Shown: positions 1 to 3,976 of the stretch, piece by piece
Layout of the letters: the number at the start of each line of letters is the position of its first letter
How positions within the stretch are numbered: the first letter of the stretch is position 1
Virus record (IMG/VR): IMGVR_UViG_3300030085_001229
Coordinates: 1-27,948 of that record
DNA length: 27,948 nt
Strand: one strand, 5' to 3'
Source: a virus
The notes under the pieces: generated by a model
Databases searched by the model: none
What the model saw: the letters and a program-made list of their open reading frames with translations, nothing else
What the model was told of the DNA's origin: nothing
Position numbers and translations under genes: made by a program

Positions 1-623
1 TAGTCAAGGAACAAAAACATTTGATGATGGCGCAAGAATCAGAAGATTTAAATGAGATTGCAAATACTGTATCTAACTTAGTAGAAGCATGTACAAATAA
101 TACTATTCAAGCAAACTCCTCACCAGTATTTGATATAGAGTATATCTTTTTAAAGATTAGATCAAAGTCTGTAGGTGAGACAGCAAGAGTTATTGTAACT
201 TGTCCAGACGATGAAAAAACAAAGGTGCCAGTTACAATACCACTTGATGAAGTTGAAGTACAAATGTTTGACGATCATACAAATGTTGTGAATGTCACTG
301 ATACAATTAAAATCGTTATGAGATATCCAACACTAAATGACTATGCCTCGTATCTAAAACAAAATGATTCAAAACATATCTTTGATATGATAAATCAATG
401 TGTAGATGAAATACACTTTGATGAGAAAATCTATAAAAGAGTAGACATGACACAAAAGGATGTTGAAGAGTTTATAGATCAGATGAATACAGAACAGTTT
501 CAGAAAGTGACACAGTTTTTTGAAACTATGCCTAGACTTAGACATGAAATAAAAGTGACTAATCCTAATACAAAAGTAGAGAGTGAGGTTATGTTGGAGG
601 GCCTCCAGAGTTTTTTAGGGTAA
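1..623 (+). CDS. gp26: T4 gp26-like baseplate hub / tail assembly chaperone-like protein, 5'-truncated by the window edge
   Basis: The frame is open back to base 3. The first visible residues (VKEQKHLMMAQES) look like the internal VKEEK-x-LL-x-A-x-ES segment of the T4 gp26 family (T4_baseplate), so the true start lies upstream, roughly 40-50 codons by family comparison from memory. Family hallmarks follow: FDIEYIFLKIRSKSVGE early, a central acidic helical part, FFETMPRLRH near the C-terminus, and the closing LEGLQSFLG. In T4 this protein is needed to assemble the baseplate hub. It lies 30 bases before gp51, in a block ending with a tape-measure-like gene. The last codons contain a slippery heptamer (611-617) that could send a share of ribosomes into the gp51 frame. 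Family assignment is confident; a chaperone role is inference. Confidence 0.85.
   Translation, partial: VKEQKHLMMAQESEDLNEIANTVSNLVEACTNNTIQANSSPVFDIEYIFLKIRSKSVGETARVIVTCPDDEKTKVPVTIPLDEVEVQMFDDHTNVVNVTDTIKIVMRYPTLNDYASYLKQNDSKHIFDMINQCVDEIHFDEKIYKRVDMTQKDVEEFIDQMNTEQFQKVTQFFETMPRLRHEIKVTNPNTKVESEVMLEGLQSFLG
596..617 (+). promoter_or_regulatory. Candidate -1 programmed frameshift site (internal SD plus T TTT TTA)
   Basis: In the gp26 frame the codons are AGT TTT TTA GGG TAA, so 611-617 is the canonical X XXY YYZ heptamer T TTT TTA two codons before the stop. A strong internal Shine-Dalgarno, GGAGGG at 596-601, sits 9 nt upstream, an arrangement like the SD-stimulated -1 site of E. coli dnaX. 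Slipping back one base enters the frame that begins AGG at 617 and runs unbroken through gp51 to the stop at 812-814. The fusion would add 65 residues. GGAGG and CCTCC (596-606) are also self-complementary. Site and open frame are seen directly; use of the site is inferred. Confidence 0.55.
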
Positions 624-652
624 TCCTTTCGCATGATACACTAGAGAGTTAT

Positions 653-814
653 ATGAAAATAAACTTCGCCATGATACAACATCATCACTGGAGTTTAGAA
701 GAGATAGAAAATATGATGCCATGGGAAAGGGAAATATATGTAGGATTATTATCCAAGTGGATAAAAGAAGAAAATGAGAGAATGGAGAAGGAAAAACAGA
801 GAAGAAAACAATAA
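653..814 (+). CDS. gp51: T4 gp51-like baseplate hub assembly protein (53 aa; possibly the tail of a gp26-gp51 frameshift fusion)
   Basis: This short frame carries the block NFAMIQHHHWSLEEIENMMP followed by WEREIYVGLL, which I recognise as the conserved core of gp51-like proteins of T4-like marine phages (MMQHH-x-x-SL-x-x-IE-x-M-x-PWE pattern). In T4, gp51 is a catalyst of hub assembly that is not in the virion. The C-terminus is a charged helix rich in Glu, Lys and Arg. ATG at 653 has only a weak GAGAG upstream. The same frame is open back to 587, and the residues just before the ATG (LSHDTLESY) look like part of the family's N-terminus. That favours synthesis by -1 frameshifting from gp26 at 611-617, either alone or alongside initiation at 653. 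It is followed 20 bases later by the EF-hand membrane protein. Confidence 0.72.
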   Translation: MKINFAMIQHHHWSLEEIENMMPWEREIYVGLLSKWIKEENERMEKEKQRRKQ

Positions 815-1179: not shown

Positions 1180-3077
1180 TGGCTGACAAATTTGATCCAC
1201 AGATTATTGCAGAACTCAAAAAACAAAATGAGGAACTAAAAGCAAATCGTGAAGCACAAAAACAATCAGACATTGAAGCAAAAAAGTATAGTGCAGAACA
1301 AGTTGCAGAGATAAGAAAACTCGCATCCTCTAATAAAAAAGGTGTATCTAAAGCTGCAAAAGAACAAGCCCAGAATGATATAAAACAACTAGACAATCAG
1401 GCAAAACTTCTTGGTATATCAGCAGAAGAATTGACTGCTAGGCAAAGAGAAAAAGATGATATAGAAGCACAGAAACAAAAACTAGATGAGATGAGAGCTG
1501 CAATAGAAGCTGCTGGTGGTAATGCAGATGAGAACCTTGCACTACAGAGAGAACAGGCTTCTATCGCAAAACAAGAAGCAAGACTAGAAGCAAAAAATAA
1601 ATTAGGTATGGCTGGTAGAATGAAAGAGGAAGCGAAAGATAGGGCTGCATCTCTCAAGGCAACTCTTTCATCACTCACATCACTAGAGGGATTGAAAGAT
1701 GGTCTAAAAGGACTTGGTGGTGGTGTAGTAGATATGGCGAAAAAGGGTGGTGGTGGATTGATGGATATGCTTAAAAAAGGTGCATTAGCACTTGCACTCC
1801 CAGCAATCTTTGCATTTGTAAACAGTAAGTATTTCGATCAACTTAAAAACTTTATCATGGATAAGGCAGTTCCTGCTGTTATGGCACTTGTAGATGTATT
1901 TAAAACATATATCATTCCAGCACTTACAAGTGTTTTTAACTTCCTAATGAAAGAGATATATCCAATTATTGAAAAAGTGTTTATCGACACTTTCAAGAAT
2001 ATCAAAAATTTGTTTGGTGATATCAAGGGTGCATTTGACAAGTTTGCAAGTGGTGACTTCCTTGGTGGTATCTCAGATTTAATTCTTGGTATCGGTAAGT
2101 TTTTTAGGGGTATTATGGACACAGCAATAACTGCTATCTATAATGTAATTGCTTCAATCTTTGGACTAGAGAAATCAGATTCTATATTTGGTTCTATCAA
2201 AAATTTCTTTACAAGTGCATATGATTCAGTAGTTGGTTCTTTGAGTAAATTTGGAAACTTTATAAAAGACACAGTTATGTCTGGATTTAATAATATCAAA
2301 AAGTTTTTTGGTTCTATATTTAGTTTTGGTAAAGACATTGCTTCTAAAATCTTTTCTGGCGCCAACTTTCTTTTAGATTTTGTCAAAGAGAAGTTTCAAA
2401 ATGTCATAGGTTTCTTCAAAGATTTATTTTCATTCAAGCCAGGCGATAGTTTTGCAACTAAGTTTATAGATATCATTTTGGCACCATATAACCTTGCAAT
2501 CAATTTTATCAGAGATATCTTTGGGTTTGGTAAAGATGAACAAGGTAATGTTAAACCTTTTAGTCTTGGTAAATTTATCATGGGTATTGTTGATGATGTC
2601 ATAGATTGGTTTGGTAGTTTCTTTGATTTTGACATAGGTGGTTTAATGTCTGGCGATGGGGATGCTATGAAATCAGTTCTGAGGGCGATGTTACCAGCAC
2701 CAGACTTTCTATCTTTTACGCTACCAGAAATAAGTCTCGGCCCTCTTGGTAAGTTTGGTGGACAAAAAATAAATCTTAATCCTATACCAGATGGATACTA
2801 TAAAATGGCAGGTATTGATCCTAAAACTGGTTTAGATGTTGAGACAAATAAAAATGCAGTAGAGAGTGTTACTACAGACCCAGTTGCAGAAGCAGAAAAG
2901 AAAAAGTTTATCACTGGTTCAGAACAAATGAAAAATCAACAAGGACTGGCAGGACAAACTACGATAATTGATGTAAGTGATAAAAAGAAAATAAATCAGC
3001 CAACCACAACATATCAAGGGCAGTCATTGTTATCAAACAACAACCGCCCCGATAGTACAGTTCATGCTTTCTACTAG
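1179..3077 (+). CDS. Large tape-measure-like tail protein (possible gp29-position counterpart)
   Basis: The product has 632 residues. Residues 1 to about 150 are a long charged coiled coil rich in Lys, Glu, Gln and Ala, interrupted by a second coil around 90-150. After a Gly-rich stretch (GLGGGVVDMAKKGGGG, near 180-197) comes a long run of amphipathic and hydrophobic helices (about 200-500) with recurring FF, FG and IFGF/FSFGKD motifs and a GDFLGGISDLI segment, all typical of tape-measure proteins. The C-terminal 100 residues are polar and low in structure. Gene order (chaperone-like genes immediately upstream) supports a tail-length or hub role. The start overlaps the stop of the EF-hand gene. 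Its stop shares two bases with the gp32 stop on the other strand. It is structural by composition and context; I cannot identify it further by sequence. Confidence 0.6.
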   Translation: MADKFDPQIIAELKKQNEELKANREAQKQSDIEAKKYSAEQVAEIRKLASSNKKGVSKAAKEQAQNDIKQLDNQAKLLGISAEELTARQREKDDIEAQKQKLDEMRAAIEAAGGNADENLALQREQASIAKQEARLEAKNKLGMAGRMKEEAKDRAASLKATLSSLTSLEGLKDGLKGLGGGVVDMAKKGGGGLMDMLKKGALALALPAIFAFVNSKYFDQLKNFIMDKAVPAVMALVDVFKTYIIPALTSVFNFLMKEIYPIIEKVFIDTFKNIKNLFGDIKGAFDKFASGDFLGGISDLILGIGKFFRGIMDTAITAIYNVIASIFGLEKSDSIFGSIKNFFTSAYDSVVGSLSKFGNFIKDTVMSGFNNIKKFFGSIFSFGKDIASKIFSGANFLLDFVKEKFQNVIGFFKDLFSFKPGDSFATKFIDIILAPYNLAINFIRDIFGFGKDEQGNVKPFSLGKFIMGIVDDVIDWFGSFFDFDIGGLMSGDGDAMKSVLRAMLPAPDFLSFTLPEISLGPLGKFGGQKINLNPIPDGYYKMAGIDPKTGLDVETNKNAVESVTTDPVAEAEKKKFITGSEQMKNQQGLAGQTTIIDVSDKKKINQPTTTYQGQSLLSNNNRPDSTVHAFY

Positions 3078-3976
3078 TTAGATGCTAATTTCTCAAAGTA
3101 TGACATAGTATCGTCATCTTCTTCCTCGGCCTTTTGGGCCTTGTTATTGAAATCATCAGCACTCATAATAGGTTTAGTATCAACAACTGGTTCTACTGGA
3201 TCATCCATAATAGATTCTGCTGTCTTTGCAGTTACAGTTCCAGATAGAACGACATCTAGACGAGTCTTGAGTTCGTCATAAGATTTAAAGTTAGTCGGTG
3301 CAAGAAACTCTTGTAAGTCATGTTGACTATTAAAGACTTCTTCCATCTTCTCATCATTATCAAACAATGCAGATGGAGCATCAAACTCTGACTTATCATA
3401 GTTCCAATAACCATCTACTTTTCTGATTTTAAGTTTGAAGTTTGCACCTTCATCCAAATCAAAAGCATTTAGAGGTTTCTCATCTTCAAATGCTGGTGTT
3501 GCGGCCTCTGAGATTTTATCCCAAATCTTTTTACCATATCTGAACAAGAAAACTTTACCTTCGTTCTCTGGATGTTTAGGGTCACTTACGACATAGATAT
3601 TTGAGTAGTAAGACAACTTTCTCTTTTGTTTACGAGCAAGTTCCTTATCTGACTCTACACCACTGTTCCACAATGCAGTATTGTGTTCTGACACTGGATC
3701 TTTTTGCCCAGGCAAAGTAGTAAGAGAGTTCTCAATATACCACTGTCCAGTTGGGCCTTGAAATGCATGAGAATACAATTTTACCCATGATTTCGTCATG
3801 TCGGTTGCAGGCAAGAAACGAATGACAGCGTAACCATTACCAGATTTATCTAGTTCTGGTTTCCACATTCTTTCGTCTACATATGATTTTTTCTCTACTT
3901 GAGGTTTATCATCTTCCTTGATTGCACCAAGTAGTTTGTCCAAGGACTTGGACTTTCTATACTCTTCTAATGACAT
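3074..3976 (-). CDS. gp32: gp32-like single-stranded DNA-binding protein
   Basis: The product has 300 residues, matching T4 gp32 (301). It has a basic N-terminus for cooperative binding, then the OB-fold core with the diagnostic stretches SYYSNIYVVSDPKHPENEGK and FRYGKKIWDKI, the equivalent of T4's SYWANILVVKDP...NEGKVFKYRFGKKIWDKI. The C-terminus is acidic (AEEEDDDTMSYFEKLASN), the usual partner-binding tail. The ENSLTTLPGQKDPVSEHNT region stands where T4 has its zinc-binding Cys-rich segment, and the whole protein contains no cysteine, so zinc is not bound the T4 way. The start is well supported by AAGGAG 7-8 bases upstream. The protein coats replication and recombination intermediates. It is the last gene of the minus-strand block and converges on the tail gene. 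Confidence 0.95.
   Translation of the reverse strand: MSLEEYRKSKSLDKLLGAIKEDDKPQVEKKSYVDERMWKPELDKSGNGYAVIRFLPATDMTKSWVKLYSHAFQGPTGQWYIENSLTTLPGQKDPVSEHNTALWNSGVESDKELARKQKRKLSYYSNIYVVSDPKHPENEGKVFLFRYGKKIWDKISEAATPAFEDEKPLNAFDLDEGANFKLKIRKVDGYWNYDKSEFDAPSALFDNDEKMEEVFNSQHDLQEFLAPTNFKSYDELKTRLDVVLSGTVTAKTAESIMDDPVEPVVDTKPIMSADDFNNKAQKAEEEDDDTMSYFEKLASN

Follow-up and report, generated by a model that had tools for sequence, protein, structure and literature searches.

The gp26-like and gp51-like reading frames of a marine T4-like phage are very probably connected by −1 programmed ribosomal frameshifting, which would yield a short protein, TAC-N, and an extended one, TAC-NC, in the manner of the lambda G/GT pair. 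The window, that is, the whole stretch of DNA that was analyzed, comprises 27,948 nucleotides (positions 1-27,948 of the IMG/VR record IMGVR_UViG_3300030085_001229), and the locus at its beginning (Table 1) is a predicted tail assembly chaperone cassette. An earlier note on this DNA had proposed a −1 frameshift joining gp26 and gp51, and the proposal is supported by the arrangement of the frames, the slippery heptamer, the SD-like element, and their conservation; selection in the −1 frame and a fused counterpart in phage T4 are likewise evident from sequence comparison. From these observations we infer that slippage occurs, at whatever rate, and that the products act as chaperones.

According to the proposed mechanism, most ribosomes would translate TAC-N (gp26-like, 234 aa) and terminate at 621-623. 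A minority would be at U UUU UUA (611-617) while GGAGGG pairs with the 16S anti-SD; both tRNAs would then slip one base back and the −1 frame would be read to position 814, giving TAC-NC, a gp26-gp51 fusion of 298 aa. Both TAC-N and TAC-NC would coat the tape-measure protein, whose gene lies downstream, and deliver it, as in lambda G/GT.

Table 1. Coordinates of the features at and around the gp26/gp51 junction of the window
Feature	Position	Strand	Remarks
TAC-N, gene 26-like, 3' part	1-623	+	Zero frame 3-623; 5' end outside the window
SD-like putative stimulator GGAGGG	596-601	+	9 nt upstream of the heptamer
Slippery heptamer T TTT TTA	611-617	+	X_XXY_YYZ phase in the gp26 frame
TAC-C, gp51-like C-terminal domain, −1 frame	617-814	+	RVILSHDTLESYMK...RRKQ stop; joined to TAC-N by the predicted shift
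TAC-N zero-frame stop TAA	621-623	+	Just past the heptamer
Weak possible stem-loop CUUUC (626-630)/GAGAG (644-648)	626-648	+	−2.9 kcal/mol, not significant in the window; strong hairpins occur here in some relatives
First in-frame ATG of the gp51 frame	653-655	+	Likely start for a gene caller; inside the conserved domain
Small membrane protein, 114 aa	835-1179	+	From the ORF list; between TAC-C and the tape measure gene
Tape-measure-like protein, 632 aa	1179-3077	+	phrog_1535, phrog_58, and others

Gene content of the locus

TAC-N belongs to the Pfam family T4_baseplate (PF12322; E=2.7e-58) and matches phrog_150 (E=1.2e-56). Its complete gene (2917-3621, 234 aa) is found on L002, a near-identical contig with 100% identity to the window across 1198 shared bases, where it is preceded by genes for head closure, DNA end protector, and tail tube proteins (the last one matching phrog_45 with E=7e-31). 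TAC-C matches phrog_634, “baseplate hub assembly catalyst” (E=1.6e-29), and, in addition, the C-terminal columns 231-281 of phrog_150, which is gp26's own family (E=2.8e-8). The matches of the 632-aa protein to “tail length tape measure protein” phrogs have E values of 2e-9 to 1e-8. The order of the tail tube, TAC-N, TAC-C, and tape measure genes is conserved, with the small gene at 835-1179 intervening, and is lambda-like, a resemblance that had been suggested earlier on the basis of the tape-measure-like gene downstream. The product of this small gene shows a weak Pfam match to Phage_holin_3_6 (E=0.012) and contains, besides hydrophobic segments, an EF-hand-like loop (DIDGDGIVTDEELD); a hypothetical gene occupies the corresponding position in Mosig and Melnitz-3.

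The structure of TAC-N was predicted with confidence (pLDDT 91). A fold search of the PDB with this model produced no significant match, the HK97 chaperone 2ob9 appearing at noise level (E=5, probability 0.18), and no match was found when the TAC-N sequence was searched against solved structures. Clear fold matches of the model were limited to viral gp26-type models.

Conservation of the slippery heptamer

Relatives were gathered by protein similarity, in a nonexhaustive search of sequence collections: a first set of IMG/VR loci was fetched with the gp26 protein, and another 80 loci, forming a set of their own, were fetched with the gp51 part as the query. Dropping sequences at least 90% alike left 101 nonredundant loci, 44 of which were studied in detail; the other 57 were added afterwards. 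All P values given here are naive because the relatives share ancestry and their sequences are not independent.

At positions 609-623, the gp26 frame reads AGT TTT TTA GGG TAA, so that T TTT TTA is present in the correct phase exactly where the earlier note had placed it. The plus-strand genes of the window contain four TTTTTT runs (at 516, 611, 2100, and 2304), of which the run at 611 alone is in phase for slippage; the number of in-phase sites predicted from codon usage is 0.22 for the visible part of gp26 and 0.004 for its last four codons. Conservation of heptamer and frame among relatives had been named in the earlier note as a check of its proposal. The pattern nnT TTT TTN was found at the same place and in the same phase in all 101 nonredundant loci (the last base being C in 41, A in 37, T in 22, and G in 1), and because every one of these loci carries it, a chance origin of the in-phase heptamer is removed altogether. 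Wherever the gp26-fetched loci extend past gp26 and contain a detectable gp51, the latter is in the −1 frame and TTTTTT[A/C/T] is found at the junction; in L010, the gp26 stop is reached and the contig ends before gp51 could show. The zero-frame stop follows 7 or 10 nt beyond the first T in nearly all relatives. In the 44 loci, the codon preceding the Phe codon always ends in T and the Phe at the heptamer is always encoded by TTT, with naive codon-usage probabilities of about 1e-10 and 3e-9, respectively, both computed before one row, Melnitz-3 (L056), was re-registered. In Escherichia coli, U_UUU_UUA is less shift-prone than A_AAA_AAG (PMC5009743), so the yield of frameshifting could be low.

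Coding in the −1 frame ahead of the first ATG

The −1 frame, translated as FFRVILSHDTLESYMKINF..., is open from 611 to the stop codon at 812-814, and the stop-free passage into gp51 noticed earlier is therefore real. Between the heptamer and +132, this frame contains a stop in none of the 44 loci, and each of the other frames is stopped in all 44. The residues ahead of gp51's first ATG evolve as −1-frame protein, judging by the changes among similar sequences of the 44 loci: at +15 to +41, upstream of the first ATG of the window, there are 170, 147, and 325 substitutions at −1-frame codon positions 1, 2, and 3, respectively, a purifying pattern that bears out the earlier impression of genuine family sequence in this segment. 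The predicted tryptic peptides for the junction region of the window are VESEVMLEGLQSF[L/F]R and VILSHDTLESYMK.

Alternatively, gp51 could be a gene in its own right, with translation beginning at ATG 653 through coupling or reinitiation once ribosomes have terminated at the gp26 stop. Public annotations do show a separate coding sequence, GAGAG at 644-648 could serve as a weak SD for ATG 653, and stop and start codons overlap as TAATG or TGATG in L060, L061, L062, and L071. However, the heptamer phase is invariant even where TAATG is present, the −1-frame codons upstream of 653 are under selection, and the strong SD-like motif about 15 nt before the heptamer is too distant from these starts. 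No ATG, GTG, or TTG occurs between the upstream −1-frame stop (584-586) and 653. The earlier note spoke of gp51's only ATG; the one at 653 is indeed the first in frame, but others follow at 671, 713, and 716. ATG 653 is seldom present in relatives, many of which have no start codon at all ahead of the conserved SHxxL block, and start positions vary, so an independent gp51 start is not a general solution. Relatives with a gp51 start before the SHDTL block and no slippery site had been named in advance as evidence against frameshifting; the close-match relatives examined all have the heptamer. Taken with these observations, separate initiation of gp51 appears highly improbable.

Putative stimulatory elements

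The GGAGGG reported in the earlier note is found, as stated there, 9 nt ahead of the heptamer. Pairing with the anti-SD in the 44 loci peaks at offset −15, with a mean of −6.65 kcal/mol versus 0.01 (sd 1.35) over all offsets. An SD-like motif is present at the fixed distance in about 85% of the relatives (87% of the 101 loci are at or below −4 kcal/mol, compared with 14% at a control offset). The Glu codon at this site is GAG in 21 cases and GAA in 5, against a background of 31% GAG (naive P=2e-7), and in some loci the motif has moved by one base and the amino acid has changed (CGA GGG). In the window, the element is part of a near-palindrome, GGAGGGCCTCC (596-606), and could be masked if this sequence folded back on itself; these letters are identical in L005 and partly so in L006.

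Downstream of the heptamer, folding at about +6 to +48 is stronger than in codon-preserving shuffles, locally, in both data sets; the excess just past the heptamer amounts to −7.9 sd in the 44 loci and, for the 57 later additions, lies between −4.6 and −12.9 sd. Part of this excess is accounted for by an 8-bp hairpin with a 4-nt loop, located at +12 to +31 from the first T, 5 nt past the heptamer, in nine relatives (L004, L077, L094, L096, L101, L108, L123, L136, and L141). Because these nine loci were chosen for folding, only compensatory changes count as evidence for the hairpin, and 11 changes on both sides were observed, compared with none when the partner was slid. These compensatory changes argue for selection on a downstream hairpin in some of the relatives. 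In the window itself, no significant structure was found (z of −0.7 to −1.8), and the 8-bp hairpin is absent from it and from many close relatives; the hairpin has therefore been gained or lost repeatedly or is fading. A single structure common to all relatives was considered and rejected, as RNAalifold gave none on 14 marine relatives; the downstream hairpins sit in differing registers and in only a subset of the relatives.

A homopolymer run at the very place where two frames join could also suggest that RNA polymerase, rather than the ribosome, slips on the T run and shifts the frame. Against this, the run often consists of just six Ts, its codon phase is invariant, which polymerase slippage would not need, and the conserved SD-like element and the hairpins are found at ribosomal spacing; we give this possibility even less credence than separate initiation.

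Counterparts in phage T4

Phage T4 gp26 is the homolog of TAC-N and terminates where TAC-N terminates. The T4 gp51 protein matches PF12322 across its first 201 residues and phrog_150 over columns 13-280 of 282, including the C-terminal part that corresponds to the −1 frame of the window, and it aligns with the gp26-gp51 fusion over nearly its whole length (hhalign E=1e-16). By these alignments, T4 gp51 consists of a gp26-like domain fused in frame to the C-terminal domain described here, that is, TAC-N plus TAC-C, and because of this, the fused TAC-N/TAC-C protein is the expected product of the window's locus. T4 gp51 is required for baseplate assembly and is absent from the particle; gp26 and gp51 are both listed as hub assembly chaperones (PMC3004832). 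T4 differs from the phage studied here in that genes 26 and 51 are separate and lie on opposite strands, with gp51 being a fusion within a single frame, and in that gene 26 has no slippery site left at its end, where the T run has been replaced (GAG TTC TTT GAG). What this phage would produce from a single gene by frameshifting is thus encoded by two genes in T4.

Relation to earlier work and known systems

Vladimirov, Gautam and Davidson reportedly identified 26/51-family chaperone genes in T4-like phages; they are also reported to describe frameshifting as seemingly conserved in several T4-like groups and T4 as encoding both forms as separate genes 26 and 51. Their paper (Virology 2022) is cited in passages of PMC10885494 and PMC12846349, the latter referring to it for poly-T −1 frameshift signals in the TAC-N genes of T4-like phages. 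This kind of frameshift is, going by those passages, already known as a prediction, and the view taken in the earlier note, that it was not established for the T4 family, has to be given up at least to this extent: it had already been proposed there. In open-access text, a direct description of gp26/gp51 frameshifting was not found, only papers citing Vladimirov et al.

The lambda G/GT system likewise has a short form and a −1-frameshifted long form encoded between the tail tube and tape measure genes. Its heptamer differs (G GGA AAG in lambda). The signal resembles that of E. coli dnaX in combining a heptamer with an SD-like element about 10 nt upstream and, in some relatives, with a stem-loop that begins 5 nt after it; it differs in having U UUU UUN in place of A AAA AAG, in belonging to another gene with another purpose, and in that the stem-loop is weak in the window.

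Distribution and annotation

The heptamer and the frame relation were read directly in members of Kyanoviridae (S-SM2, S-CRM01, Mosig, and Melnitz-3), in Straboviridae outside the T4 group (Aeh1, PX29, AS-yj, Ci1, and PG216), in Rhizobium phage AF3 (Pootjesviridae), and in Vibrio phage D490, Stenotrophomonas phage Marzo, and Xanthomonas phage X1. With the arrangement repeated in more than 100 independent contigs as well as in cultured phages from several families, and with purifying selection on both sides of the junction, a sequencing error or a decayed gene, for which the frame change alone would speak, is refuted by the relatives and has practically no probability left. A −1-frame gp26/gp51 relation in the absence of TTTTTT was seen in the Ackermannviridae Klebsiella phage 0507-KN2-1 and Salmonella phage PST-D24 and in Vibrio phages D493 and K474. 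These four loci (L063, L068, L069, and L073) contain the candidate sites G ATT TTC, A CTT TTC, and G CTT TTT, which recall the type of site in T7 gene 10.

We consider it likely that the signal is a composite of the dnaX type, in which U UUU UUN is preceded by an SD-like element and, in some lineages, followed 5 nt later by a stem-loop that compensatory changes preserve; that both the SD-like element and the heptamer have been kept across Kyanoviridae-like phages, non-Tevenvirinae Straboviridae, Pootjesviridae, and other phages; and that, in T4's group, the change of gene 51 to an in-frame fusion was accompanied by loss of the signal.

Of the 16 public records with this arrangement that were inspected, none is annotated with one joined coding sequence; the gp51 part appears in them as a separate short gene with an arbitrary start, as “hypothetical,” or is missing. 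Reading the locus as one frameshifted gene would correct such annotations, in a group of phages that is common in marine data. It also offers a reason for T4 having both gp26 and gp51, and the T4 gp51 fusion gives a clear test of the proposed chaperone function in a model system.
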